NCBI RefSeq assembly: GCF_000176035.2
Contig: NC_015675.1
Location: 1,488,001-1,552,000 of the forward strand
Direction of reading: 5' to 3'
Length of the DNA: 64,000 nt
Source of the DNA: Mesorhizobium opportunistum WSM2075
GTDB taxonomy: Bacteria > Pseudomonadota > Alphaproteobacteria > Rhizobiales > Rhizobiaceae
The notes below the pieces were generated by a model, which did not search any database, was not told the origin of the DNA, and saw only the letters and a list, made by a program, of their open reading frames with translations. Position numbers and translations under genes: made by a program. Shown piece after piece: positions 5,499 through 17,792 of the stretch; positions within the stretch are counted from its first letter, which is position 1, and each line of letters begins with the position of its first letter.

Positions 5499-7181
5499 TT
5501 GCCCATAAAGGTCCGATATCGCTCATGGATCGCATCACCATTGAAGAAACTTTTTCCAATCGTCGCGTTCGTCGCCGTCGCGCTGATCAGCATGACCATG
5601 GCGGGGTTCGCCTATTTCGCGACGCAGGAAGCCGCCCGCATCAAGTTCGAAGGGGCGGCCGACGATGCGCTCAACCGGATCGAGAGCCGTATCGACCTGC
5701 ATCTGTCGCTGCTGCGCTCCACGCAGGCTCTGTTCGACGCCCGTAACGGCGACATATCGCAGAATGAGTTCAAGGCATTCTTCAACGCGCTGGATATCAA
5801 GGACAATTTCGCCGGCCTGCGCGGGATCGGGTTCCTCCAACTCGTCAAGACGGGCGACGAGGCGGCGGTCGAACGCGATATCCTCCACGATTTCGGTGCC
5901 AGCCATCCGGTCTATCCGGATACGACGCAGCCCTGGCGCGCGCCTATCACTCTGTTCGAGCCGCTGGATCCGTCCAACCAGGCGAGCATCGGCTACGACA
6001 TGTTCAGCGAGCCGGTGCGGCGCGCGGCGATCGAAAAGGCAATGGCGGACGACCAGCAGCACGCGAGCGGGCTGGTGCAACTCGGCCAAGGCACCGGCGC
6101 CGCGCAGACCTTCACCGGCTTCCTGGTCTTCGTGCGGCTCAACGTCGAAACCGCGCCCGAGGTCATCAACGCATCGCGATCCTCGACCGCGGGCTTTCTC
6201 TACGCAGCCTTCCGGGCCCGCGACCTGTTCCAGATTGCGCTCAGCCGCACGCCGCTGCTGCCGGTCAACACCGAGATCTATGACGGCACAGTGAACGGCG
6301 ACAATCTGTTGTTTCGGTCGGAGACGCCACCGGCTTCGTCGTTTGGCGACCGGCTGCTGGTCACCCGCAAGATCATGGTGGCTGGCCGTCCATGGACCAT
6401 ATTGTTCAGGCCGACCAGCGCCTTTTTGCAACCGTCGTCGCGCGCCATCCCGGTGATGCTGGGGCTGTTCGGTTTGCTCGCGGCAGGCGCCATCGCGCTG
6501 GTGGCGCGCTATCAGGAACGGGCCTACGAGGCGGCATCGCGTCTGCACGAGACGACCGAAAAGAGCCTGCTCGAAAAGGACCTGATGCTGCAGGAGATGA
6601 AGCATCGTATCAAGAATTCGATCACCAGGGTGCTGGCGATCGCGCGACAGACGGCGTCGCGGGCGACCGACGTCAACGAGTTTTCCGCATCCTTCTCGGC
6701 CAGGCTGCAGGCGATGGCGGCTTCCCAGGACATGCTGACGCGCTCGCGCTGGCAGAAGGCCGATCTCGCCGATCTGCTGCGCATCGAGCTTGGCCAGGTG
6801 TTCGGCAAGGAACTGCCCGAGGGGCTGCTGTCGGGGCCGGAGGTACTGCTCGACGAGACGACGACGCAGTCGCTTGGCCTGACCTTCCATGAACTGGCGA
6901 CCAACGCGCTGAAATATGGCGAAGCCGGCAATTCCGCCAATTCGCTTGGGAGTGACTGGGCGCTCAAGGTGGACTGGTCGCTGGAAGGGCGTGGGCGCGA
7001 GCGGACGCTGGCGCTGAACTGGCGGGAGGCCGGGAAAAAGAAAGTCGAGGCGCCGTCCGAAACCGGATTCGGCACCAAGCTGATCGACCTCAACGTCACC
7101 CGCGAACTGCGTGGCACGATCAAACGCGATTTTCAGGCCGATGGTCTGAAGGTGGAGATCAGAATTCCGTTGGTCGGCTGA
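5499..7181 (+). CDS. CHASE-domain sensor histidine kinase, HWE family
   Basis: A membrane sensor kinase of up to 560 residues. A transmembrane helix (PIVAFVAVALISMTMAGFAY) leads to a periplasmic CHASE domain (RGIGFLQLV, YPDTTQPWRAPITLFEPLD). A second helix lies near residues 310-330, then the cytoplasmic HWE kinase: phospho-acceptor EMKHRIKN (His near 369), the N-box HELATNALKYG and the WxE motif LNWREAG. It stands alone without a partner regulator gene; HWE kinases commonly phosphorylate PhyR or single-domain regulators, both encoded downstream. The start is uncertain: TTG at 5499, or TTG at 5541 giving MKKLFPIV. No EcfG-type promoter was seen before it. Confidence 0.82.
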   Translation: MPIKVRYRSWIASPLKKLFPIVAFVAVALISMTMAGFAYFATQEAARIKFEGAADDALNRIESRIDLHLSLLRSTQALFDARNGDISQNEFKAFFNALDIKDNFAGLRGIGFLQLVKTGDEAAVERDILHDFGASHPVYPDTTQPWRAPITLFEPLDPSNQASIGYDMFSEPVRRAAIEKAMADDQQHASGLVQLGQGTGAAQTFTGFLVFVRLNVETAPEVINASRSSTAGFLYAAFRARDLFQIALSRTPLLPVNTEIYDGTVNGDNLLFRSETPPASSFGDRLLVTRKIMVAGRPWTILFRPTSAFLQPSSRAIPVMLGLFGLLAAGAIALVARYQERAYEAASRLHETTEKSLLEKDLMLQEMKHRIKNSITRVLAIARQTASRATDVNEFSASFSARLQAMAASQDMLTRSRWQKADLADLLRIELGQVFGKELPEGLLSGPEVLLDETTTQSLGLTFHELATNALKYGEAGNSANSLGSDWALKVDWSLEGRGRERTLALNWREAGKKKVEAPSETGFGTKLIDLNVTRELRGTIKRDFQADGLKVEIRIPLVG

Positions 7182-7608: not shown

Positions 7609-7932
7609 TTATTGTTGGCTAAGGTCGCCTTTTTCTGGGCGCGTCGCGTTCGATGCCACGACGAGGCTGGATATCGCCAGCGAGGCGTCGAGACTGCCAT
7701 CGGTATGCACATTCCAGACGATCCGATCATAGTCATCCTCGAGCGCGGGATCGACCGCGAGGCACTTGGCGACGACGTGTTGCGCCTGCTCCCGCACATC
7801 GCCCACGACGAAGGGACGCTCGGCGGTGCATTCGTCGGCGGTCGCAAAGACGCTGACTGGAACCTGGAGCTCATGACAATCGGCCATCGAGTTGGTGCAA
7901 CCGACCAGCAACAGTGCAGCGATATGTTCCAT
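7609..7932 (-). CDS. Putative small lipoprotein of unknown function
   Basis: A 107-residue product starting MEHIAALLLVGCTNSMADCHELQV. The LLLVGC sequence resembles a very short lipoprotein signal. The rest holds several Cys residues (ADCHEL, DECTAERP, VAKCLAV) and DDYDRIVWNVHTDGS. I do not recognise a family. The start at 7932 has GAGGGG upstream and lies 22 bases after a GGAAC-N17-CGTT motif (7954-7979), which argues for it over the longer ORF beginning at 8292. It is probably a general-stress-induced envelope protein, but this rests on promoter and signal only. Confidence 0.5.
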   Translation of the reverse strand: MEHIAALLLVGCTNSMADCHELQVPVSVFATADECTAERPFVVGDVREQAQHVVAKCLAVDPALEDDYDRIVWNVHTDGSLDASLAISSLVVASNATRPEKGDLSQQ

Positions 7933-7953: not shown

Positions 7954-7979
7954 AACGGTCCGGATGAGCCAAAAGTTCC
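7954..7979 (-). promoter_or_regulatory. EcfG-type promoter (GGAAC-N17-CGTT) before the putative lipoprotein
   Basis: On the minus strand GGAAC (7979-7975) and CGTT (7957-7954) are 17 bases apart, the longer of the two spacings accepted by EcfG sigma factors. It ends 22 bases before the ATG at 7932. It is the only one of the ten sites here with spacing 17, so it is somewhat less certain. Confidence 0.55.
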
Positions 7980-8051
7980 TGGTTCCGGGATGACAAGCGA
8001 ATAATGCCTGTCGCGAGCGGCTAAACACTAGGCGGGCAGGACGGATCGCAG

Positions 8052-8228
8052 TCAGGTCAGCCTGAACACGGTGACCAGGAGAATTGTCGCGGCCGCGGCC
8101 AGGACCACACCCCAAAGCAGACCGTGATGAGGCGGGGAAAGCGGTTCCGCGGATGCTTCGGGATCCTGGAATTCGCCCATCGAAACACGGGCGGCCTGTT
8201 CCAGTCTGTTCATGTCGGAGACGGTCAA
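8052..8228 (-). CDS. Small single-pass membrane protein (too short for routine calling)
   Basis: A 58-residue reading from a TTG start at 8228, with GGGAGG five to six bases upstream (or 53 residues from ATG 8213, which has no good ribosome site). The N-terminal half is hydrophilic (MNRLEQAARVSMGEFQDPE), and the C-terminal half is one hydrophobic helix (GLLWGVVLAAAATILLVTVF) ending in RLT. It lies on the same strand as, and downstream of, the PAS-HWE kinase. An 9-bp inverted repeat (TGCTGCAAC/GTTGCAGCA, 8247-8272) sits just upstream. Function unknown. Confidence 0.5.
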   Translation of the reverse strand: MTVSDMNRLEQAARVSMGEFQDPEASAEPLSPPHHGLLWGVVLAAAATILLVTVFRLT

Positions 8229-8360
8229 GCATTCCTCCCAATACCTTGCTGCAACCCAAGCAAGTTGCAGCAGTATCTGGGTAAAACAGCATCCGCCCTT
8301 ATGGTGAACAGCCGGTTAAGGATCTCCGGCCGCCGCAGGCGTTCCCGGCCACCGCGCTCG

Positions 8361-9392
8361 TCATGTCTCGAAATTGCTGTGCGGAACGACAAGGCGGTAT
8401 TCGAGGTGGCCATCCACGATATCGAGGCTCGCGGTTCCATTCAGGGACGCGGGCACCACCCGCTCCAGCGCGACGCTGCCGAAACGCTTTTGACTGCCTC
8501 GGCCGCCATTGGTTCCAATGGCTTCGGCCCATGTCAGCGACAGGACGACCTCACCGGCGGCTGCGGTGTTGAGATCGGCGCTCACCTCGACGAAACCATC
8601 CGGCCGGGACAGGGCGCCATAGCTGACCGAGTTGACGGCGAGTTCATGCATCGCGAGGCCAATATGCAGTGCGGCGTTGGGATTGAGGTAGGGATTGGCG
8701 CCCCGGAAGCGAAGGCTGTGCGATGTGCTCGTGCCATAGCGGCCGACCTGGCTTGCCACCAGGTCATGGAGGGCCGCACCGCGCCAGTTGGAAGAAGTCA
8801 CCAGGTCCTGGGAGGACGCCAGCGACTGCAGCCGGCCACGAAAACGGGTCAGGAAATCGCCGATGCTGTCGGAATAGCGGCCGGTCTGGGTCGCTATGCT
8901 CTGGATGATCGCCAGCAGGTTCTTCGAGCGGTGGCTGACTTCGCGCAACAGCGTCGTCAATGTCTGTTCGCGGCGCTTCTGCTCGGTCGTCTCGACCATT
9001 GTGGTGACCACGCCTTGCACATCGCCGCCGTCGCCATGGTCGGCATCGACCCATACCTGGAACCAGCGGATGCCATCTTCGCCCGGGACACTGATCTCAA
9101 GCCGCTCCGGATTGCCGGTCGCGACCACATCGCCCTTTGCGGTGCGGATGCGGTCGGCCTGCGCTGTAGGCAAGATGCCATTGCCGTCGGTATTGTCAGA
9201 GACCCAGGGCGCACGCATGTTGCGGGCCCATACGGTCTTCATCTCTCGATCCTGATAGAGGACGGAAATGCCGGCATTGTGCAGGGCGTGGAGAAGCGCC
9301 CGGCCAAGCTGCATGCCGCTTTCCGCCGGATGCAGCGCGATGACTTCGTCACTCCCCGCGCCTTCCGTCCTATCTGAAGTCTTGGAGCGCAT
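8361..9392 (-). CDS. PAS-domain sensor histidine kinase, HWE family (soluble)
   Basis: A 343-residue kinase without membrane segments. An N-terminal PAS-like domain (about residues 30-140, with NAGISVLYQDREMKTVWARN and GIRWFQVWVDA) is followed by the HWE core: EVSHRSKNLLAIIQSIA (His154), N-box MHELAVNSVSYGAL and the WxE motif LTWAEA. It stands directly behind an EcfG-type promoter (9422-9446), so it is probably part of the general stress response and may feed back on PhyR. Its signal is unknown; no flavin-binding LOV signature (NCRFLQ) is visible. Confidence 0.85.
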   Translation of the reverse strand: MRSKTSDRTEGAGSDEVIALHPAESGMQLGRALLHALHNAGISVLYQDREMKTVWARNMRAPWVSDNTDGNGILPTAQADRIRTAKGDVVATGNPERLEISVPGEDGIRWFQVWVDADHGDGGDVQGVVTTMVETTEQKRREQTLTTLLREVSHRSKNLLAIIQSIATQTGRYSDSIGDFLTRFRGRLQSLASSQDLVTSSNWRGAALHDLVASQVGRYGTSTSHSLRFRGANPYLNPNAALHIGLAMHELAVNSVSYGALSRPDGFVEVSADLNTAAAGEVVLSLTWAEAIGTNGGRGSQKRFGSVALERVVPASLNGTASLDIVDGHLEYRLVVPHSNFET

Positions 9393-9421
9393 CGGTCAAT
9401 CTGTCCACCCCTGCTAGGCTG

Positions 9422-9446
9422 AACGGTTCCCCGGCAAATGGGTTCC
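9422..9446 (-). promoter_or_regulatory. EcfG-type promoter for the PAS-HWE kinase
   Basis: Minus strand GGAAC (9446-9442), 16-base spacer, CGTT (9425-9422), ending 30 bases before the kinase ATG at 9392. The spacing and sequence match the general-stress sigma factor consensus exactly. Confidence 0.75.
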
Positions 9447-9571
9447 CAAGGAAAAACCAGCTTCCAAATAGCGGTCCGCCGGACGGCGTCCGTTTGAGGG
9501 ACACCGCCCGGCGGTGGCTGGAAACCGTTTGAGGGGTGCGGCTTCCAGTGTTCGCCTGAATGAAGGTCGCC

Positions 9572-9736
9572 TCATGCTCGCCTGAACAAACCGGCAAGAA
9601 GCGAGATGATCAGGAAGGCGAGAAAGACGAAGAACAATATCTGCGCGATGCCTGCAGACGTGCCGGCGATGCCGCCGAAACCAAGCGCGCCGGCTATGAT
9701 GGCCACGACGAGAAATACGAGCGCCCAGTAAAGCAT
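9572..9736 (-). CDS. DUF1328/UPF0391 small membrane protein (YtjA-like)
   Basis: A 54-residue protein with two hydrophobic helices. The N-terminus [20 protein letters not shown] followed by [16 protein letters not shown] is a near-textbook match to the DUF1328 family (E. coli YtjA is 53 residues). GGAGATGAACC supplies the ribosome site. Members are inner-membrane proteins without assigned function. An EcfG-type promoter at 9767-9791 lies 31 bases upstream, so it is probably stress-induced here. Confidence 0.85.
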
Positions 9737-9766
9737 GGTTCATCTCCTTCCGAATGGTGCGATGAA

Positions 9767-9791
9767 AACGTGGGTGGTTGCGGTTTGTTCC
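9767..9791 (-). promoter_or_regulatory. EcfG-type promoter for the DUF1328 gene
   Basis: Minus strand GGAAC (9791-9787), spacer of 16, CGTT (9770-9767), 31 bases before the ATG at 9736. Confidence 0.75.
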
Positions 9792-9861
9792 ACCATTTGC
9801 TGAAAAAGACGACGCTTGCAAACGGTTCGGGGGAAATCGCTGATGAGGGAACCCCGGCTTT

Positions 9862-9900
9862 GCAAAAGGGCCGCCAGATGCGTCGCATCTGGCGGCCCTT
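9862..9900 (-). terminator. Strong hairpin terminator after phyR
   Basis: A 17-bp stem (AAGGGCCGCCAGATGCG / CGCATCTGGCGGCCCTT) around one unpaired base, followed on the minus strand by TTTTGCA. It sits 49 bases after the phyR stop and separates phyR from the downstream stress genes. Confidence 0.8.
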
Positions 9901-9948
9901 GCCGTGAAATCCTGCTATCGGTCGGATCTTGCGGCCAGACGGCCGGGC

Positions 9949-10743
9949 CTATGCGGCGGCCTTGGCCTGACGGTCGAAGAACAGCGCCTGGCTGATCAGC
10001 GCCTTGACCATGTCGGGGTTGAACGGTTTGGTCACCAGGAAAGCTGGCTCGGGGCGCTCGCCGGTCAGGAGGCGCTCGGGAAAGGCAGTGATGAAGATGA
10101 CCGGCACCGACGTTGATGACAGGATCTCGTTGACCGCTTCGATACCCGAACTGCCGTCGGCGAGCTGAATGTCGGCCAGCACCATCTTCGGCCGTGTCTT
10201 GCCGAACATCGTCACCGCTTCGGCATGGGTGCGCGCCGTTCCCACGACGCGGTGGCCGAGGCTCTCGACCATCTCCTCTATGTCCATTGCGATCAACGGT
10301 TCGTCCTCGATGATCAGCACGTCGGTTGCCACCTGGCGAGAGATTTCATTGCTCGCCTGGGCAAGCAGCTCGGAGAATTCCTGGTCGCCGACGTCGAGGA
10401 TCTCGGCCGCCTCGTCCTCGCTGAAGCCTTCGACGGCGACCAGCAGGAAGGCCTGCCGGGGAAGCGGAGCGATCGCATTGAGATTGGCGGCTGCGCGCTG
10501 CTCCCATGCCGATTGTGCCTGCTCCTGCGGAACACGGATGGCGACCGACGTGAACAGTTTGGCGAACACCTTGTAGAGGGCGATACGGTCGCTCGATGCT
10601 TCGGGAAAAATATCGACATCGGCAATGATGGCCTCGAGCATCGCGGCGACCAGCGCATCTCCGCTCTCCTGGGACCCGGAAACGGCGCGCGAGAAGCGGC
10701 GCAGGAACGGCAGGTGCGGGGCGATGGTGGCGGATAAACTCAT
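9949..10743 (-). CDS. phyR: General stress response regulator PhyR (anti-anti-sigma factor)
   Basis: A 264-residue protein with the diagnostic PhyR architecture. Residues 1 to about 135 are an EcfG-like sigma mimic (region-2-like SSDRIALYKVFAKLF, region-4-like GFSEDEAAEILDV). Residues 140-264 are a receiver with acidic pocket IIEDEP, phospho-acceptor Asp191 (VLADIQL), ITAFPERL and Lys239 (LVTKPF). When phosphorylated, PhyR opens and binds NepR, freeing EcfG. It is divergent from nepR-ecfG and has its own EcfG-type promoter, which gives positive autoregulation. Domain order and context make the call firm. Confidence 0.96.
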   Translation of the reverse strand: MSLSATIAPHLPFLRRFSRAVSGSQESGDALVAAMLEAIIADVDIFPEASSDRIALYKVFAKLFTSVAIRVPQEQAQSAWEQRAAANLNAIAPLPRQAFLLVAVEGFSEDEAAEILDVGDQEFSELLAQASNEISRQVATDVLIIEDEPLIAMDIEEMVESLGHRVVGTARTHAEAVTMFGKTRPKMVLADIQLADGSSGIEAVNEILSSTSVPVIFITAFPERLLTGERPEPAFLVTKPFNPDMVKALISQALFFDRQAKAAA

Positions 10744-10817
10744 GGTAGGACGTCTCCCTCAGAATGACGCGATTGCCTGGATTTGCAGGTCGAGCTGATT
10801 GCAGGCCCAGCTAACAT

Positions 10818-10842
10818 AACGCGGGCTCTCCGAAAAAGTTCC
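10818..10842 (-). promoter_or_regulatory. EcfG-type promoter for phyR
   Basis: Minus strand GGAAC (10842-10838), 16-base spacer, CGTT (10821-10818). It is back to back with the nepR-ecfG promoter; the two GGAAC elements are only nine bases apart. Confidence 0.8.
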
Positions 10843-10851
10843 GGCGCAAAT

Positions 10852-10876
10852 GGAACGAATGGGCGCGAACGGCGTT
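10852..10876 (+). promoter_or_regulatory. EcfG-type promoter for nepR-ecfG
   Basis: GGAAC at 10852-10856, 16-base spacer, CGTT at 10873-10876, about 90 bases before the nepR start. The position fits autoregulation of the sigma factor operon, as established for alphaproteobacterial general stress loci. Confidence 0.8.
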
Positions 10877-10967
10877 TGGGGTTGGGATGGGCGACCAGAC
10901 GAGGATGCCGCTTGCCTTGTGTCGAGTTGAATTCAAGCGGCTTTCGTGCTGGGAATATAAGGGCGAA

Positions 10968-11171
10968 ATGAAGGATATGACCAAAGAAATTTTGACTGGC
11001 GCCGCGGGCAGGCGCCGGAACGGTTCGGGCGACCCGCTCGGGCCTAACTCCGAAATCGGACGCAAACTCAAGCAGTATTACGACGAGCTGGTCTCCGACG
11101 ATGTGCCGGATCGCTTTGCCCAGTTGCTCAGGCAACTGGAACGGACCGAACCCGCGCAGAAGAAGGACTGA
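10968..11171 (+). CDS. nepR: Anti-sigma factor NepR
   Basis: A 67-residue protein with the conserved NepR core LGPNSEIGRKLKQYYDELV followed by VPDRFAQLLRQLE. NepR binds EcfG and holds it inactive until phospho-PhyR takes NepR away. The start at 10968 (MKDMTKEIL) has AAGGGCG nearby; the longer ORF from 10887 would overlap the promoter region and is less likely. The gene is three bases from ecfG, so the two are co-transcribed and probably translated together. Confidence 0.95.
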   Translation: MKDMTKEILTGAAGRRRNGSGDPLGPNSEIGRKLKQYYDELVSDDVPDRFAQLLRQLERTEPAQKKD

Positions 11172-11174
11172 GGC

Positions 11175-11726
11175 ATGGCAGCGGTCTCCCAAGGCTTCAA
11201 GACCGATCTGCTTGGGGCGATCCCAAGCTTGCGGGCCTTTGCCGTGTCGTTGACGCAGAATGCCGACAAGGCCGACGACCTCGTTCAGGAGACGCTGGTC
11301 AAGGCGTGGGACAAGCATGAGAGCTTCCAGCCCGGCACCAATCTCAAGGCATGGCTTTTCACTATCCTGCGCAATGAGTTCTATTCGCAAATGCGCAAGC
11401 GGGGCCGCGAGGTGCAGGACAGCGACGGCATCATGACGGCCAGGCTTGCGGTGCATCCGGCCCAGCACGGCCAACTCGACCTCAAGGATTTTCGTGGCGC
11501 TCTCGAGCAATTGCCGGAAGACCAGCGTGAGGCCATCATCCTCATCGGTGCTTCGGGCTTCTCCTACGAGGAGGCCGCCGAAATCTGCGGTTGCGCGGTC
11601 GGAACGATCAAGAGCCGGGTCAGCAGGGCCCGCACGCGCCTGCAGGAAATCTTGAAGATCTCCGGTGAAGACGAATATGGTCCCGATGCGATCTCGACCC
11701 AGGTCACAGGGACGGCAGCACATTGA
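11175..11726 (+). CDS. ecfG: General stress ECF sigma factor EcfG
   Basis: A 183-residue ECF sigma factor. Region 2 includes NADKADDLVQETLVKAWDKH and the -10 recognition segment KAWLFTILRNEFYSQMRK. Region 4 includes LPEDQREAIILIGA, SYEEAAEICGCAVGTIKSRVSRAR. It directs RNA polymerase to GGAAC-N16/17-CGTT promoters, of which this window has ten. NepR antagonises it. The short Gly/Asp-rich C-terminal tail after residue 165 is not part of the core. Often annotated rpoE in rhizobia. Confidence 0.95.
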   Translation: MAAVSQGFKTDLLGAIPSLRAFAVSLTQNADKADDLVQETLVKAWDKHESFQPGTNLKAWLFTILRNEFYSQMRKRGREVQDSDGIMTARLAVHPAQHGQLDLKDFRGALEQLPEDQREAIILIGASGFSYEEAAEICGCAVGTIKSRVSRARTRLQEILKISGEDEYGPDAISTQVTGTAAH

Positions 11727-11768
11727 AGCATGCCTAGTAGCAGGAACCCGGATGCTGCCGCGTCGGTC

Positions 11769-12218
11769 TCAATCAGGCGAGGCACGTCCGTAGGCCAGCG
11801 CCACCGCTTCGACCAGATCTTCGCCTGAATAGGGTTTGGTGACCAGCCTCACCCCTGGAAACGTTGCCTTGATCTCGTCCGCATCCGAATAGCCGGAGGC
11901 AAACACGAAGGGGACGCCTGTTTCACGCAGGCCCGCGGCGAATTCGAGCGTCGAAGTGCCGCCCAGCATCAGATCGACGATGGCCGCGTCGAATTGCGTT
12001 GCGACCTTTCGGCCATCGACCTCGGTCAGGTCGCGGGCAATCACCACCTCGCCTGCACCGTGGTCACGGCAAAGCTGCTCGACATCCATGGCTATGAGGA
12101 ACTCGTCCTCCAAGACAAGAATGCGCAATCCATCAAGTAACGGGGGCACGGGCAATGGCTCCTTGAAACGGTGGGAGTCATGATGGTTATTTGGGCCGTT
12201 GTCATTTAAAAAAGACAT
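11769..12218 (-). CDS. Single-domain response regulator (receiver only)
   Basis: A 149-residue receiver with a flexible 25-residue leader. The acidic pocket is LVLEDE, the phospho-acceptor is Asp82 (AAIVDLML), the Thr/Ser site is FASGYSD and the Lys is in LVTKPYSG. The FASGYSD segment marks the FAT GUY class of receivers that partner HWE kinases in general stress signalling. It is convergent with ecfG (42-base gap). It has no output domain, so it probably acts as a phosphate relay or sink between HWE kinases and PhyR. No EcfG-type promoter was seen upstream. Confidence 0.85.
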   Translation of the reverse strand: MSFLNDNGPNNHHDSHRFKEPLPVPPLLDGLRILVLEDEFLIAMDVEQLCRDHGAGEVVIARDLTEVDGRKVATQFDAAIVDLMLGGTSTLEFAAGLRETGVPFVFASGYSDADEIKATFPGVRLVTKPYSGEDLVEAVALAYGRASPD

Positions 12219-12256
12219 GCCGCCGCTCGTCTAACAGAGACATCCCGCCGCTCGTC

Positions 12257-12281
12257 GGAACTTCGATCCCGGCAAAGCGTT
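12257..12281 (+). promoter_or_regulatory. EcfG-type promoter without an assigned gene
   Basis: GGAAC at 12257-12261, spacer of 16, CGTT at 12278-12281. Transcription would begin near 12288. Downstream there is a strong GAGGAGGGGG before ATG 12328, but that frame is unconvincing. A 31-residue frame from ATG 12341 to 12436 (ending GCEALKQLGRAAEF) is an alternative. It may also simply extend into the DUF883-like gene at 12555. Confidence 0.65.
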
Positions 12282-12499
12282 TCAAATCCTGCCTGCCGCC
12301 CGGCGGGCGCTCGAGGAGGGGGTCGAAATGCCAAGCCAGAATGGGCGCTTTTCAGCTGATGGATCGCAAGCTGGTCGTCTGGCGCGACGGCGGTTGCGAG
12401 GCGCTAAAGCAGCTCGGGAGGGCCGCCGAGTTCTGACGCAATGCATCTTGCCAGATCGGGTGCGCGCGGGCAGCTTTCCAGGTAGTTTGGACCGATGCC

Positions 12500-12524
12500 G
12501 GAACGTTAAGCCGCACGGCGCGTT
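12500..12524 (+). promoter_or_regulatory. EcfG-type promoter for the DUF883-like gene
   Basis: GGAAC at 12500-12504, spacer of 16, CGTT at 12521-12524, 30 bases before the ATG at 12555. Confidence 0.78.
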
Positions 12525-12554
12525 TGAAATCGAGCAATCACAAGGAGTTAAGCA

Positions 12555-12881
12555 ATGGCAGCTGCCGCAGGAAAGACCGCCAACGAGGCGCGGGCGAATT
12601 CGGACCTCGAGGCCGATATCAGGCAGTTGAAGGCCGATATCGACAAGCTTACCAAACAGTTGGCCAAGACCGGTGAACACGGCTACGGCACCGCGCGTCG
12701 TGCGGCGGCCGAAGGTGTCGAGCAGTTGCGGGCCCAGGGTGAAGCGGCTTTCGATAACCTGCGCGGCAACGCCAGGGATATCGAGGCGCAGATGGTGGCG
12801 AGCGTACGCGAAAAGCCTGTGACGTCACTGGCAATCGCCGCCGGTGTCGGCTTCCTCTTCGCGCTGCTCGCGCGTCGCTAG
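12555..12881 (+). CDS. DUF883-family membrane-anchored protein (ElaB/YqjD-like)
   Basis: A 108-residue protein. Residues 15-85 are an amphipathic, heptad-rich helical region (DIRQLKADIDKLTKQLAK, GVEQLRAQGEAAFDNLRG). The C-terminus VREKPVTSLAIAAGVGFLFALLARR is the single membrane anchor typical of DUF883. E. coli relatives ElaB and YqjD are stationary-phase inner-membrane proteins, YqjD binding ribosomes. CACAAGGAG gives the ribosome site, and an EcfG-type promoter is directly upstream. It is 11 bases from the next membrane gene, as in the yqjD-yqjE pair. Confidence 0.82.
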   Translation: MAAAAGKTANEARANSDLEADIRQLKADIDKLTKQLAKTGEHGYGTARRAAAEGVEQLRAQGEAAFDNLRGNARDIEAQMVASVREKPVTSLAIAAGVGFLFALLARR

Positions 12882-12892
12882 TCACGCCGCAG

Positions 12893-13378
12893 ATGGGACT
12901 GCTGGCATCGCTGCTTTCGGGTTTCGCCTCGGGTGAAACTTTGGCCGCCGTGCGCCGCGCGCGCACGGCGGCCATCGTCTATGCGCTCGCCGCTCTGGCG
13001 GCATTGTGCGGTCTCGGCTTTCTGGTGGGGGCCGCCTATATCTGGGCGGCGGCCCGCTATGGATCGCTGGCGGCGGCGCTCGGTTTCGGTGTCGGCTTTC
13101 TGGTGGTCGCGGGCCTCGTTCTCCTGATCCATCGGTTGATGTCCGGCGCTCGCGCTCGCCGCGAGGCAAAGCGGCGCAAAACCGACATGAAGGCGATCGG
13201 CGTCACGGCCGCACTGGCCCTGCTGCCGACGTTGCTCAAGGGGACAGGGGGACTCAAGGGGAAAGGCGGCCTCGGGATCATTCTGGGCCCGGCCGTGGCG
13301 CTCGCGGCCTATGCCATTTACCGCGAGAACTCCAAACCCGGCGCTGACCATCCGGATGATGCCGGCGAGGGGAAATAA
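12893..13378 (+). CDS. Membrane protein, probably YqjE/holin-superfamily-like
   Basis: A 161-residue protein. Two hydrophobic helices (about residues 25-50 and 57-82, AIVYALAALAALCGLGFLVGAAYIW... and ALGFGVGFLVVAGLVLLI) precede a basic cytoplasmic stretch ARARREAKRRK and a C-terminal hydrophobic region ending AVALAAYAIYRE. The pairing behind a DUF883 protein matches yqjD-yqjE, but I see no sequence motif that proves YqjE. It is co-transcribed with the upstream gene and so very likely belongs to the EcfG regulon. Confidence 0.65.
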   Translation: MGLLASLLSGFASGETLAAVRRARTAAIVYALAALAALCGLGFLVGAAYIWAAARYGSLAAALGFGVGFLVVAGLVLLIHRLMSGARARREAKRRKTDMKAIGVTAALALLPTLLKGTGGLKGKGGLGIILGPAVALAAYAIYRENSKPGADHPDDAGEGK

Positions 13379-13406
13379 CGTCGCCGCTTCGGCCCGGATG
13401 GGTCCG

Positions 13407-14951
13407 TCATTTCGACAGGTCTTCCAGGGGCATCGATATTTCGGCGAATACGCCCTCCTGACGGAATTCATGGGTCACTTCGCTTGAAAGGACCTTGGCT
13501 AGGCTGCGCCGGATGAGGATCGAGCCGAACCCGTGGCGCTGGGGCGGGGTAACCTGCGGGCCGCCGCTTTCGCGCCAGGTCAGCACCAGGCGACGGTCGC
13601 TCTTCCTGCCTTGCGCCTTCCAGCCGAGATCGACCTTGCCCGACGCAACCGACAGCGATCCATATTGCAATGCGTTGCTGGCCAACTCGTGCAGGATAAG
13701 GCCAAGGCCGACGGCCTGATCGGGCGACAGCAGCAGGTCGGCCCCGGAAATCGTCATACGCGGCTGGCCGGCTGTGTCAAAGGGTCCGGTCTCGATCTGG
13801 ACGAGTTCGCGGATACCGATGCCGCGCCACTCTCGGTCGGACAAAAGATTGTGCGCGACGCCCAGGGCCTGAAGCCGGGCACCGAAGGCTTCCAGGAATT
13901 CGCTCGGCTGGCGGGCATGACGCACGGTCTGCGTCGCCAGCGCCTGGACGGTCGCCAGCGTGTTCTTGACGCGATGGTTGAGTTCGCGCAGCAACAGCCG
14001 CTGCCGCTCGTCGCCGAGCTTGCGTTCGGAGATGTCGTAGTTGACGCCGAAGATGAGCGTCGGCTTGCCCTCGCCGTCGCGTTCGATGACACGGCCACGC
14101 GTCGCGACCCAACGCGGCGGATGGAAGCCCTTTACGCGATATTCACCGAAGTAGTCGTCACTGCCGGTCAAGGCGTCGCGAAAGCGGGTCTCGGTCTGGT
14201 AGACGTCGCGCGGATCGATGGCGGTGAGGATGTCGCGTGCCCGCAGCCGGGTCGAGCGTGGCAGGTTGAACAGTTCCGACAGCCGGACATCGCATTCGAT
14301 GATGTCGGTGCGGATGTCCCATGCCCAGCTGGCAAGCGAGGCCGCGTCGAGCGCGATGGCGCGGCGTTTTTCCTCGCGCGCCAGTGCGGCCTCGGCGATA
14401 GCGCCGCTGCGGGTTGCGTCCTTCAGGGTGAACAGGCTGGCGGCGAGGCCGGCGAGCCTCTTCAACTGGTCGAGCGTGGCGGGGGACGGATAGGCATGCG
14501 GCTTGCGGTCGAGGACGCATAGCGTGCCGATCCTTGCGCCGGCCACCAGCATCGGCGCGCCGGCATAGAAGCGCACATGGTGCTTGCCGGTGACCAGCGG
14601 GTTGGTTTTGAAGCGTGGATCCGTCGTTGCGTCCGTCACCACCATGGGTTCGTCGCCGGCGGCGATGGCGTGGGCGCAGAAGGAGATGTCGGTCGTCGTT
14701 TCGGTCTCGTCCAGGCCAAAGCAGGACTTGAACCATTGCCGCTCGATATCGACGAGCGTGACCAGGGCGATCGGCGCTCGCATGACGGTCGCGGCAAGGC
14801 TGCTGATGCGGTCGAAGTCCAGGTCCGCGGCCGTATCCAGCATCTCCAGCCCGTGCAGCACGGCCAGACGGCTTTCGTCCTTCACCGCGCCCGCAACCGC
14901 GGCCGGCAGAGCCGGCACTGTTTCCACCTTGCTATTCACCCAAGTCCCCAA
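13407..14951 (-). CDS. GAF-PAS sensor histidine kinase, HWE family (soluble)
   Basis: Up to 514 residues. An N-terminal GAF domain (about 30-180; FDRISSLAATVMRAPIALV, ISFCAHAI, FYAGAPMLVAGARIGTLCVLD) is followed by a PAS domain (about 195-310; ASWAWDIRTDIIECD, with PAC segment LIFGVNYDISERK) and then the HWE core: LRELNHRVKN (His326), N-box LHELASNALQYGSL and WxE motif LTWRESGGP. GAF-PAS-HWE kinases of this design act upstream of PhyR in several alphaproteobacteria. The start may be TTG 14951 or GTG 14939, the latter with GGGGA five bases before it. Confidence 0.85.
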   Translation of the reverse strand: MGTWVNSKVETVPALPAAVAGAVKDESRLAVLHGLEMLDTAADLDFDRISSLAATVMRAPIALVTLVDIERQWFKSCFGLDETETTTDISFCAHAIAAGDEPMVVTDATTDPRFKTNPLVTGKHHVRFYAGAPMLVAGARIGTLCVLDRKPHAYPSPATLDQLKRLAGLAASLFTLKDATRSGAIAEAALAREEKRRAIALDAASLASWAWDIRTDIIECDVRLSELFNLPRSTRLRARDILTAIDPRDVYQTETRFRDALTGSDDYFGEYRVKGFHPPRWVATRGRVIERDGEGKPTLIFGVNYDISERKLGDERQRLLLRELNHRVKNTLATVQALATQTVRHARQPSEFLEAFGARLQALGVAHNLLSDREWRGIGIRELVQIETGPFDTAGQPRMTISGADLLLSPDQAVGLGLILHELASNALQYGSLSVASGKVDLGWKAQGRKSDRRLVLTWRESGGPQVTPPQRHGFGSILIRRSLAKVLSSEVTHEFRQEGVFAEISMPLEDLSK

Positions 14952-15005
14952 AGCCCAGCCCCGGTCTTTGCCGCTTCGCCGGCCTGCGGCCGATCGGCTC
15001 GTCTC

Positions 15006-15030
15006 GGAACCATCCTAGCAAGGAACCGTT
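15006..15030 (+). promoter_or_regulatory. EcfG-type promoter for a small membrane protein gene
   Basis: GGAAC at 15006-15010, spacer of 16, CGTT at 15027-15030, 42 bases before the ATG at 15073. Two more GGAAC copies nearby (15022 and 15052) lack a correctly spaced CGTT. Confidence 0.78.
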
Positions 15031-15072
15031 ACCGAGAACGTCAACAGGCGCGGAACGAAACAAGGACCGGCC

Positions 15073-15246
15073 ATGATCAAGATCATTCCCGAAAACAAAG
15101 CGCGTCAGGGGCGATGGGGCAGGCATGGCTTGCGTATCCTGATCGCCGCACTGCTTCTCGCCTTCGCGGCCTGGGGCATCGCCGAAATCTATGGCGAGGT
15201 CGCCAAGACGCCGGCGACAGAGCAAGGAAGCGCGCCGAGCAACTAG
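15073..15246 (+). CDS. Small single-pass membrane protein, EcfG-controlled
   Basis: A 57-residue product. A basic N-terminus (MIKIIPENKARQGRWGRHG) precedes one transmembrane helix (LRILIAALLLAFAAWGIAEIYG) and a polar tail ending QGSAPSN. I do not recognise a family. The reading frame is supported by the well-placed EcfG-type promoter and AAGGACCGG before the ATG. It lies between a GAF-PAS-HWE kinase (divergent) and a lipid kinase gene (convergent). Probably a stress-induced inner-membrane peptide. Confidence 0.6.
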   Translation: MIKIIPENKARQGRWGRHGLRILIAALLLAFAAWGIAEIYGEVAKTPATEQGSAPSN

Positions 15247-15275
15247 AGCCTTGACCGTCATCGTCCGAGATCGCA

Positions 15276-16196
15276 TCAGGCGGCCTTTGCCTCGGCAATG
15301 CTGGCCGGCACCAGGACATTGAGCGCGCCAGGCCGGATTTCGAGCGTCGTGTCGCGGTCGAGCCTGACCAGTTCGCCATCCATCACAGCGTGGAACTTCT
15401 TACTGCCCGAGTGGATTTTCAGAACCGCCCGGTCGGCTTGGTGGATTTCGACATGCTCGTTGTCGCGCCATTTGCCACGCGCCACGTCGAAGAAGAATTT
15501 GACCAGTTCTGCACGCTGCTGCGCCACCGTGACGTAGATACCGAGCACGCCGCCAGCAGGGTTGTCGGCATAGGGCAGGTGGCCTTCGCCAAACAAATTG
15601 TTGGTAATACCGATGCCGGTGATGCGCGCCGCGATCTCGGTTTCGCCGATATTTAACGTGACGTTCATCGCCGGCGGATTCTTGATCGTCGCCCACGCCG
15701 CCTTAGCCGAAGCCCCGATCTTTCCCAGGCGCGAACCGAATTCCATCCTTTGGCGCAACTGAACCATCCTCGCATGCATGCCGATGGAGAACTGATGGAT
15801 GAAGGGCTGGCCGTTGGCCGTGGCCATGTCGACGGCGATGATTTCGCCGTCGGCGAAGGATTTCAGCGCGGCATCGAGCGACTGTGGAATGCCCAGGCCG
15901 CGTGCGAACAGGTTCATGGTGCCAGCCGGCAATATGGCAAGCGCTTTGTTCTTGCCCATCAGCCTGGCGGCCGCGGCGGAAATGGTTCCGTCGCCGCCAC
16001 CGGCCAGCACGACATCGACGGCACGGCGCGAAGCGACGCTGTCGAGGGTCTCGACCACGTCCTTGCCGGCAACGACATCGATGCTGAGAGAATGGCCAGC
16101 ACTTTCCAGGGTCCGACGCATCCTGTCGGAAAAAGCCGCGAGGTCGGTGGTGCGCATGGTGCCACCGTCCCGGTTCAGCACCGCCGCAAATTTCAT
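15276..16196 (-). CDS. Diacylglycerol kinase-family lipid kinase (YegS/DagK-like)
   Basis: A 306-residue protein of the DAGK catalytic family. The nucleotide-binding motif GGGDGTISAAA is near residue 67, LAILPAGTMNLFARGLGIP follows, and the second lobe carries GITNNLFGEGHLPYADNPAGGVLGI. It should phosphorylate a lipid such as diacylglycerol, phosphatidylglycerol or sphingosine-like bases at the inner membrane. It has its own EcfG-type promoter (16254-16278), suggesting envelope lipid adjustment under general stress. The substrate cannot be read from the sequence. Confidence 0.82.
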   Translation of the reverse strand: MKFAAVLNRDGGTMRTTDLAAFSDRMRRTLESAGHSLSIDVVAGKDVVETLDSVASRRAVDVVLAGGGDGTISAAAARLMGKNKALAILPAGTMNLFARGLGIPQSLDAALKSFADGEIIAVDMATANGQPFIHQFSIGMHARMVQLRQRMEFGSRLGKIGASAKAAWATIKNPPAMNVTLNIGETEIAARITGIGITNNLFGEGHLPYADNPAGGVLGIYVTVAQQRAELVKFFFDVARGKWRDNEHVEIHQADRAVLKIHSGSKKFHAVMDGELVRLDRDTTLEIRPGALNVLVPASIAEAKAA

Positions 16197-16253
16197 GCCC
16201 CGCTCCGCTGCCTAAGACACAGTCCGGCCGGCATGCGCCCAGCCGAAGGCTGA

Positions 16254-16278
16254 AACGCAGCGAAGCGGAAAAGGTTCC
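16254..16278 (-). promoter_or_regulatory. EcfG-type promoter for the lipid kinase gene
   Basis: Minus strand GGAAC (16278-16274), spacer of 16, CGTT (16257-16254), 58 bases before the start at 16196. Confidence 0.75.
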
Positions 16279-16366
16279 GGCGGCACCGGGATCCGCGGTT
16301 GCATCCAGTGGGCCTGCCCCGCATTTCGCTTCAGGTTTCATCACCAATGCCACGCGGCTTTTTGTC

Positions 16367-16391
16367 GGAACAACAGCATGGTCACGACGTT
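16367..16391 (+). promoter_or_regulatory. EcfG-type promoter for the PRC-barrel protein gene
   Basis: GGAAC at 16367-16371, spacer of 16, CGTT at 16388-16391, about 94 bases before the start at 16485. It is divergent from the lipid kinase promoter within one 288-base gap. Confidence 0.75.
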
Positions 16392-16484
16392 GTGAACTTG
16401 TAGAAATGCCGCGCTCGATCTCACCGGCGACGGTCAAAACCGGGCGCGGCGTGCACGCAACTCAGGCACGCAGGAGAGATGATC

Positions 16485-17792
16485 ATGATCCGCACCCTTT
16501 TAGCTTCGACCGCACTCGCAGCCCTGGTCGCGACCGGCGCCTTTGCGCAGACCGAGGCAAGCCCGGGACCGGCCACACCTTCCGTCCAGCAGCCCGCCGC
16601 TGGTTCGGCGATACACGCCGAAGGTAGCATCGTCACCAACATCATCGGCGAATCCGTCTATAACGGCCCCGGTGACGACGCCGAAAATATCGGCAAGGTC
16701 ACCGATGTCGTCTTCGACAAGGATGGCATGACGAAATCCGTCGTCATCGGCGTCGGCGGCTTTCTCGGTGTCGGAACGAAGGATGTCGCCTTCGACTACG
16801 ACAAGCTGCAATGGGCCGAGAAGAATGGCGACCGGTGGCTGATTGCCAAGACAACCAAGGACGAGTTGAAGGCCCAACCTGAATTCGACAGCAAGCCTTA
16901 TGAACCCGCGTCAGCGCCTGCGGCTTCCAACGCGGCAGCACCCGCGGCAACGGATACGGCACAGGCACCTGCCGCCGCACCGGCCGAGCCGGTAAAGCGC
17001 GCCGATGGCAATCTTGCCACCAACATCATCGGTGAGACCGTCTACAACGGCACCGGCGACGACGCACAGAACATCGGCAGCGTCAACGACATCGTGCTGA
17101 GCAAGGAGGGCAAGGCCCAGTCACTGGTGATCGGCGTGGGCGGGTTCCTTGGCCTCGGGGCCAAGAACGTGACCTATGACTTCAACAAGGCACAGTGGGC
17201 CGAGAAGAACGGCGACCGCTGGCTGGTGGCGCAGACCACCAAGGAAGAGCTGCAGGCGCAACCGGATTTCAACCGCAAGGCCTATGACCCGGTGCCGGCA
17301 ACGACGGCGTCCAATGCGCCGGCGGCAACCACTCCGGCCGCCGCGCCCTCCGGCACGACGGCCCCCGCCGCTCCGGCAAACAAGACGGCGCAGGCGCCGG
17401 CATCCCCAGATGCCTCGGCTCCCGACCAGACGCAGACCGCGGCCATCGACAAGTCGGCGCTGACGGAAATGCCGATTGGCGAAATCCGTGGCGAGGACCT
17501 GAAAGGCACGACCGTCTATGGCGCCAATGATGCCAAGGTCGGCGAGATCGGCGATGTCGTGCTGACGCCCGACAACAAGCCCGACGCCGTGATCGTCGAC
17601 GTCGGCGGCTTCCTCGGCATAGGCTCGAAGGAAGTGGCTGTCGGCATGGATAATTTGAAGTTCATGACCGACAAGAACGGCAAGAAGTACCTGTACACGA
17701 CCTTCACCAAGGAACAGCTCCAGGCCCAGACCGCCTATGACAAGGGCAGCTATGCCGAGAAGCGGGACCAGCAGCGGATGATTGTGAGGTAA
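16485..17792 (+). CDS. Exported protein with three PRC-barrel domains
   Basis: 435 residues from the ATG at 16485, which has GGAGAG eight bases upstream; the ATG at 16479 is too close to it. A signal peptide (MIRTLLASTALAALVATGAFAQ) is followed by three PRC-barrel repeats near residues 45-125, 170-260 and 325-420. Each has the pattern VYN or VYG, GDV/GSVNDIV, VIGVGGFLG(V/L)G and KNGDRW or KNGKKY. Ala/Pro/Thr-rich linkers (AAPAATDTAQAP, AAPSGTTAPAAP) join them. The first two repeats are closer to each other than to the third. PRC barrels bind RNA or membrane-associated partners; the periplasmic role is unknown. EcfG-type promoter upstream. Confidence 0.82.
   Translation: MIRTLLASTALAALVATGAFAQTEASPGPATPSVQQPAAGSAIHAEGSIVTNIIGESVYNGPGDDAENIGKVTDVVFDKDGMTKSVVIGVGGFLGVGTKDVAFDYDKLQWAEKNGDRWLIAKTTKDELKAQPEFDSKPYEPASAPAASNAAAPAATDTAQAPAAAPAEPVKRADGNLATNIIGETVYNGTGDDAQNIGSVNDIVLSKEGKAQSLVIGVGGFLGLGAKNVTYDFNKAQWAEKNGDRWLVAQTTKEELQAQPDFNRKAYDPVPATTASNAPAATTPAAAPSGTTAPAAPANKTAQAPASPDASAPDQTQTAAIDKSALTEMPIGEIRGEDLKGTTVYGANDAKVGEIGDVVLTPDNKPDAVIVDVGGFLGIGSKEVAVGMDNLKFMTDKNGKKYLYTTFTKEQLQAQTAYDKGSYAEKRDQQRMIVR

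Follow-up and report, generated by a model that had tools for sequence, protein, structure and literature searches.

The 64-kb stretch of DNA analyzed here (the window) most probably carries, with a probability of about 0.9 as judged from its sequence, the locus at the core of the general stress response of Alphaproteobacteria, closely packed with genes that are themselves targets of that response, with a tenth promoter that would be a relic and further targets scattered elsewhere in the genome. The system itself is of a known kind: the PhyR-NepR-EcfG general stress response is known in the Alphaproteobacteria, including Methylobacterium, Bradyrhizobium, Caulobacter, Sinorhizobium (RpoE2) and Brucella. 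In this system, stress causes PhyR to be phosphorylated by HWE-type kinases; PhyR~P then strips NepR from EcfG, and transcription by the EcfG-RNA polymerase starts at GGAAC-N16/17-CGTT.

Scanning for exact GGAAC-N16/17-CGTT, the EcfG-type promoter pattern, revealed 10 matches in the window, all within 8.4 kb around phyR-nepR-ecfG, while the remaining ~55.5 kb contained 0 exact sites. These are the ten sites listed in the initial annotation, each exact in position and strand; the spacing of 16 claimed for nine of them was confirmed, the tenth (7954-) having N17. The annotation let eight directly precede a clear gene, which is an undercount, since nine precede an intact ORF (with the called start 22 to 94 b beyond the CGTT box) and the tenth, 12257+, precedes a gene remnant. 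The whole genome (one contig, 6,884,444 b) holds 140 exact sites (98 N16 and 42 N17), and the other 130 predict 0.16 sites in 8,438 b, giving a Poisson P(≥10) of 2.5 × 10−15 under the simplification of a uniform rate, promoters being non-uniformly placed. The densest 8,438-b stretch outside the island has 4 sites, and a genomic background equal to the island, which the initial annotation gave as a refuting outcome, is thereby ruled out. A reversed-pattern control gave 192 matches genome-wide versus 140 for the motif, so that the motif is enriched by position only and not by genome-wide count.

Conservation was assessed in 80 named loci of relatives, 70 of them titled Mesorhizobium (81 loci with the window included). 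For each gene, n is the number of loci where the gene was found, and only exact sites no more than 150 b from the start were counted; because the 81 loci share ancestry, these counts are not independent. In the 80 named loci, 668 of 708 sites were this close to one of the same ten gene starts; among the 81 loci, sites so placed were present in 57 to 80 loci for the nine intact genes and in 44 for the Crp/Fnr-type gene. The spacing was likewise selective, with 625 sites at N16 and 83 at N17 versus a total of 277 for 16 other spacings (~17 each), of which two were raised (N13, 42; N19, 70). Neighboring genes without sites served as inside controls and gave no EcfG-type site in 47 loci for the GAF-PAS-HWE kinase, in 71 for a CHASE-HWE kinase and in 67 for a sulfatase. 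By these comparisons, the promoter cluster is genuine and has been kept in related species.

At the center of the island, phyR (9949..10743, minus strand) encodes sigma-like domains plus a receiver (PF22029, PF22233 and PF00072, all above cut-off), and diverges from nepR (10968..11171, plus strand; anti-sigma factor, PF18557, 2.7 × 10−16, 59.3 bits versus a cut-off of 25.7) and ecfG (11175..11726, plus strand), which begins 3 b after nepR and encodes an ECF sigma factor with Sigma70_r2 and r4_2 (regions 2 and 4) above their cut-offs. An alternative, longer in-frame start for nepR lies at 10887. The phyR promoter (10818..10842, minus strand) and the nepR-ecfG promoter (10852..10876, plus strand) stand back to back with their −35 boxes 9 b apart, and both are exact here; each is exact in 80 of the 81 loci. 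Three HWE kinases lie in the window, at 5499, 8361 and 13407. The second of these, a PAS-HWE histidine kinase (8361..9392, minus strand; PF07536, 2.3 × 10−23; PAS_4 below cut-off), follows an exact site at 9422..9446 (minus strand) that is exact within 150 b in 57 of the 79 loci having the gene, or in 64 if 7 sites farther upstream are counted. The third is the GAF-PAS-HWE kinase (13407..14951, minus strand; PF07536, 4.1 × 10−26; PF01590, 1.9 × 10−12). A single-domain response regulator (11769..12218, minus strand; PF00072, 9 × 10−8) showed no conserved exact EcfG-type site (1/77 loci). Those features of a PhyR-NepR-EcfG stress locus that can be read from sequence were all found, namely the PhyR domains, nepR next to ecfG, sigma regions 2 and 4, both promoters and nearby HWE kinases.

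The remaining intact genes are predicted targets, for which the initial assignment of the DUF1328, DUF883, lipid kinase, PRC-barrel and two small genes to the island is borne out by exact sites kept within 150 b of the start in relatives. The DUF1328 small protein gene (9572..9736, minus strand; PF07043, 1.1 × 10−15) is preceded by an exact site at 9767..9791 (minus strand; exact in 80/81 loci). The product of 12555..12881 (plus strand; PF19029, 25.1 bits; PRK10132, 3.3 × 10−5) is ElaB-like; since it missed the DUF883 family cut-offs (25.1 versus 27 bits for PF19029, 17.9 versus 25.4 for PF05957, and below cut-off in NCBIfam as well), we named it DUF883-like. Its site (12500..12524, plus strand) is exact, as it is in 78 of 79 loci. 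A gene for a hydrophobic protein directly downstream (12893..13378, plus strand) has a site within 350 b in just 2 of 79 loci, at 339 and 350 b, and is probably cotranscribed with the DUF883-like gene. The lipid kinase of diacylglycerol-kinase type (15276..16196, minus strand; PF00781, 1.9 × 10−21; PF19279) and the triple PRC-barrel protein (16479..17792, plus strand; PF05239 in 3 stretches, 1 × 10−37) follow exact sites at 16254..16278 (minus strand; exact in 64/67 loci) and 16367..16391 (plus strand; 60/73), respectively; the PRC-barrel and PAS-HWE sites are missing in some lineages.

The two small proteins matched no Pfam or NCBIfam family. One is a conserved protein of 107 aa (7609..7932, minus strand), whose N17 site (7954..7979, minus strand) is exact in 67 of the 68 loci having the gene. 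Its AlphaFold model, for which one extra leading residue was included, shows a small alpha/beta domain (pLDDT 75.8, pTM 0.62), so that the hydrophobic N-terminus, instead of being a signal peptide, may form a strand. The other, of 57 aa (15073..15246, plus strand), has one apparent transmembrane helix by eye; its site at 15006..15030 (plus strand) is exact, and is exact in 61 of 68 loci with one mismatch in the other 7.

A motif this short might cluster by chance or through base composition, and a genome count of 140 that does not exceed the reversed-pattern control would fit such an origin. However, dinucleotide shuffles of the window (n = 100) gave a mean of 0.77 and a maximum of 4 matches, with 0 of 100 reaching 10, no other stretch of the genome exceeds 4 sites, and in relatives the same genes retain their sites, with the spacing likewise selective; the conservation data refute this origin, which we consider practically negligible. 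It is also improbable, though less extremely so, that ECF sigma factors other than the EcfG of the island recognize some of these sites or all of them. The genome does encode three ECF paralogues elsewhere (45, 38 and 39% identity to EcfG), but the ~3.5-kb stretches around them hold 0 exact sites, and the island sites flank phyR-nepR-ecfG and are conserved with that locus across families. As for the extent of the regulon, the initial annotation read the density as a stress-response gene island rather than scattered targets. The island part stands, this being by far the densest stretch of the genome, while a regulon confined to it is very unlikely: among 129 distinct outside sites, 67 lie between genes and have a same-strand start no more than 250 b away, versus 8 of 60 N18/N19 controls (Fisher, 2 × 10−7), and the families downstream of outside sites include CsbD, Ku, DUF892, DUF3008, Usp, baeRF/Host_attach and another HWE kinase. 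Since the outside sites are shifted into promoter positions, the phrase excluding scattered targets is wrong, and the island is, by sequence, the densest part of a regulon that has scattered targets too.

The exact site at 12257..12281 (plus strand) is followed here by a Crp/Fnr-type deletion remnant (12328..12436, plus strand), consisting of the first codons and then a frame-shifted C-terminal piece. An intact relative (L031:7696-8457) shares cNMP_binding and HTH_Crp_2 domains with Crp/Fnr-type regulators (FnrL/FixK-like; best NCBIfam model FnrL, 3.2 × 10−25, far under its cut-off), whereas behind 12257+ in the window no intact cyclic-nucleotide-type domain plus HTH was found. Of 81 loci, 55 carry a nearly full-length copy of the gene, and the equivalent site is exact in front of 44 of these copies. 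From these comparisons, 12257+ most probably served, ancestrally, a Crp/Fnr-type regulator that this genome has lost by deletion, and it assigns no working gene here. It is rather unlikely that the site is no relic but remains active, either driving the DUF883-like gene as an additional promoter or producing a short RNA or peptide. Among at least 14 loci with a decayed gene, 11 keep an exact equivalent of it, and the DUF883-like promoter begins 243 b farther on. Against this, inspection of 14 of the 15 loci initially scored as lacking the gene (L056, at a contig end, being left out) showed the promoter broken as well in at least 3, where remnants were recognized by a blastn match to the gene's 3′ end (L087 and L089) or by eye (L082), and perhaps in L070, where the leader alone was recognized by eye. 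The decays may also be recent, differences between lineages in the spacer include time preceding gene loss, and the 12257+ region had 0 Rfam matches. The idea that the promoter is kept in every gene-losing lineage was dropped on account of the broken promoters beside the remnants in L082, L087 and L089. Gene-state changes on the tree numbered at fewest 20, in a count that omits L056 and L069, both at contig ends, and allows lost genes to be regained; in L069, the DUF883 gene is missing at the contig end, and the promoter is present.

For the favored reading, a core stress locus with its own targets, EcfG recognition, signal flow and gene functions would be as follows. Stress would lead the HWE-type kinases to phosphorylate PhyR, PhyR~P would remove NepR from EcfG, and the EcfG-RNA polymerase would start at GGAAC-N16/17-CGTT sites. 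The two back-to-back sites would feed back on phyR and nepR-ecfG, one would raise a kinase, and six would raise the genes for the DUF1328, DUF883-like (probably with the next gene), 107-aa, 57-aa, lipid kinase and triple PRC-barrel proteins. The arrangement resembles PhyR-NepR-EcfG loci in that phyR is divergent from nepR-ecfG, with HWE kinases nearby and GGAAC-N16/17-CGTT before both, and differs in having ten sites in 8.4 kb and effector genes in the same block. Sites averaged 9.0 per ~20-kb phyR stretch among the 74 named loci that span 20 kb or more; beyond the named set, there were 156 in 30 family loci (best single loci, 11 to 12), 147 in 30 order loci (best, 10) and 38 in 15 class loci. 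Site clustering around phyR is common to other Alphaproteobacteria at lower density.

The geometry of the back-to-back pair is also widespread. The −35 boxes are 5 to 10 bp apart in 75 of 80 named loci (two of these with one mismatch) and in 52 of 65 phyR-linked pairs from family, order and class genomes outside that set, and the DNA between them varies while the gap is kept; no promoter pair with at most one mismatch in all was found in 19 of 58 family, 23 of 42 order and 8 of 15 class genomes. The rarer, larger gaps are mostly about one, two or three helical turns farther (19; 29 to 32; 39 to 40), which suggests that they are mostly in helical phase, with exceptions. For 11 hand-chosen long-gap lineages, one per family or clade, with L106 (22 b) added from the named set and with L403, L408 (79 b) and L232 (88 b) dropped, L403 being the second entry for its family, the Rayleigh test gave R = 0.72 for a period of 10.5 b, with P = 0.0065 when the period was scanned, and the V-test gave P = 0.0006. 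Searches of 397 genomes for pairs anywhere in the genome gave gaps of 11 to 16 and 23 to 28 among the matches listed; these pairs were kept out of the statistics except one, in G228, which lies just upstream of a second, 40%-identical PhyR and has an off-phase gap of 23 b. Adding it changed P to 0.003, and adding the 79- and 88-b gaps as well changed P to 0.023. Conceivably, the pair is a composite element with geometry kept over sequence across the Alphaproteobacteria, in which the two EcfG polymerases, or a partner common to both, would depend on a fixed helix face, coupling anti-anti-sigma to sigma/anti-sigma synthesis. The off-phase cases (the G228 pair, and the 22- and 32-b gaps, ~3 b off phase) lower the odds of this reading, which we regard as doubtful, though by no means remote. 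If the geometry is functional, the few bases between the two promoters would help set the balance of the response.

Reading this motif thus yields a conserved, testable list of predicted stress-response genes in a genus of nitrogen-fixing symbionts. The list includes two nameless small protein families, with an EcfG-type promoter kept in most relatives having them, and points to a predicted EcfG-driven regulator that has been lost repeatedly, while its promoter often remains.

Pattern search of the window recovered exact matches to the EcfG-type promoter (GGAAC as -35 box, N16/17, CGTT as -10 box) at all ten positions proposed in the initial annotation, namely, 7954-, 9422-, 9767-, 10818-, 10852+, 12257+, 12500+, 15006+, 16254- and 16367+, and the spacing was N16 in nine, as proposed, and N17 in 7954-. 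The sites fall within an 8,438-b island (7954-16391) around phyR-nepR-ecfG, and the rest of the 64-kb window held no exact motif. The genome, a single contig of 6,884,444 b, carries 140 exact sites (98 N16 and 42 N17), along with 33 and 55 matches at the control spacings N18 and N19, respectively. The island makes up 0.12% of the genome yet contains 10 of these 140 sites, and the fullest other 8,438-b stretch has 4, a comparison that bore out the density claimed for the region. In sites 9422-9446 and 15006-15030, the terminal sequence is GGAACCGTT, which places a second GGAAC right against the -10 box.

Within the island, Pfam confirmed PhyR, NepR, the ECF sigma factor and a pair of HWE kinases; a CHASE-HWE kinase was confirmed at 5499, just beyond it. 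The predicted targets include a DUF1328 protein, a lipid kinase and a triple PRC-barrel protein (all by Pfam), a DUF883-like protein scoring under the Pfam cut-offs, and proteins of 107 and 57 aa without known family. While PhyR shares 99% identity with that of M. jarvisii, DNA identity over the region reached about 86% at best among 80 named phyR-bearing loci (L031-L110; 70 titled Mesorhizobium), and the window species is therefore distinct from theirs.

The initial annotation had inferred an island rather than scattered targets, and this opposition did not hold. Outside the island, the motif occurs at 130 places, representing 129 distinct sites (two share one sequence). With genes called by a simple codon model trained on the window, 30 of the 129 lay within genes and 67 lay in intergenic DNA no more than 250 b from a start on the same strand, versus 45 and 8, respectively, of 60 controls (the first 30 N18 and first 30 N19 sites; Fisher, 2e-7 for promoter placement). 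Pfam was run on 30 of the 67 downstream genes, hand-picked in most cases because the spacer was A/T-rich or the protein looked familiar, and revealed CsbD (2), Ku, DUF892, DUF3008, DUF3309, Usp, baeRF/Host_attach, BA14K (2), GH16, an HWE kinase and others, plus one DUF1328 match below the cut-off; 10 of the 30 matched no family at E ≤ 1e-4. We take these families to resemble general stress response targets. Elsewhere in this genome (L162:1-1512, from 4506400-4509500), a multi-PAS HWE kinase gene has an exact site 31 b upstream.

The 80 named loci contained 708 motifs (625 at spacing 16 and 83 at 17), versus 277 matches at 16 other spacings together, and the 74 loci of at least 20 kb averaged 9.0 sites (range, 5 to 12). 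Spacings 13 (42) and 19 (70) were commoner than other off spacings; they keep step with codons, and shared coding sequence may be their source. For 668 of the 708 sites, the start of one of ten genes was no more than 150 b away. Among 81 loci including the window, and counting those in which the gene was found, an exact promoter within 150 b preceded the genes for the 107-aa protein (67/68), PAS-HWE kinase (57/79), DUF1328 (80/81), phyR (80/81), nepR (80/81), Crp/Fnr (44/55), DUF883-like (78/79), 57-aa (61/68), lipid kinase (64/67) and PRC (60/73) proteins, counts that are not independent given that the named loci are akin to one another. Sites were absent before the neighboring GAF-HWE (0/47), CHASE-HWE (0/71) and sulfatase (0/67) genes in the same loci, and the response regulator gene had one in 1 of 77. 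The start of that last gene carries a TGTCATTTA element (12200-12222) in 70 of 75 loci and an inverted-repeat form, e.g., TGTCATTTAAAAATGACA, in 4; the element may be a coding start or an operator. The PAS-HWE kinase gene lacks an exact promoter in a nine-row clade (L077-L082, L085, L088 and L090).

In most relatives, the equivalent of 12257+ precedes, and judging from sequence would drive, a gene for a 253-aa Crp/Fnr-type protein that combines a cyclic-nucleotide-type domain with a Crp HTH domain. The window copy has its middle deleted and its C-terminal piece frame-shifted and shortened further. Decayed copies occur in at least 14 loci, interspersed with intact relatives across the tree; the promoter is exact in 11 (the window, L033, L035, L040, L068, L078, L080, L081, L085, L088 and L092) and broken in 3 (L082, L087 and L089). 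The simplest reading is that a dispensable gene was lost repeatedly, with promoter decay following later. The exact motif is also absent before 11 of 55 near-full-length copies (L032, L036, L038, L039, L057, L062, L084, L096, L099, L103 and L108), as if these had been rewired.

The phyR and nepR-ecfG promoters stand back to back, their -35 boxes 9 b apart in the window. Of the 78 exact pairs among the named loci, 73 had a gap of 6 to 10 b and 5 one of 18 to 22 b; the remaining two loci, with one mismatch, had gaps of 7 and 8 b. A further 65 pairs (exact or with one mismatch), drawn from 115 stretches of family, order and class genomes, had gaps of 5 to 10 b in 52, 19 in 4, 29 in 3, 32 in 2, and 39, 40, 79 and 88 b in one each. 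The DNA between the boxes varies, with 87 distinct sequences in 206 matches with a 5- to 10-b gap (counted on both strands, about 103 pairs). Besides these, the named loci contain 69 divergent exact pairs, which lay 5 to 120 b apart (the search extended to 120 b); the gap was at least 33 b in 64. Thus, this one intergene preserves its length but not its sequence. If polymerases did no more than exclude each other, the short gaps would be accounted for but helical phase would be left unexplained: most longer gaps tend to share one phase, a pair beside a second PhyR gene, with a gap of 23 b, is off it, and the test weakened to a P of 0.023 with every exception found included. Polymerase-polymerase contact or a shared partner would account for short gaps and phase alike.

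In the general stress response, the signal passes from kinase to PhyR~P, NepR and EcfG, and the island would follow the same flow, carried over from the known system; the results obtained here concern sequence, position and conservation. Three ECF paralogues (L361, L362 and L363, at 6749380, 4656294 and 5412962; 45, 38 and 39% identity to EcfG) are possible co-readers of the sites, and the stretches of about 3.5 kb around them held no exact site. A second, weak NepR match (L369, 1862544-1862597; 27.3 bits, model positions 17-34) lies far from the island.

In phyR-centered stretches of up to 20 kb, 30 family loci (a few genomes apparently from the same organisms as named loci) had 156 sites, 30 order loci 147 and 15 class loci 38, versus 14, 9 and 4, respectively, expected from other spacings; 6 of these 75 had none. 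DUF1328 near phyR had an exact site in 19 of 21 loci at the family level and 10 of 17 at the order level; for the DUF883-like gene, the corresponding counts were 13 of 23 and 9 of 11. The clustering, which is densest in the named set, is therefore old and shared.
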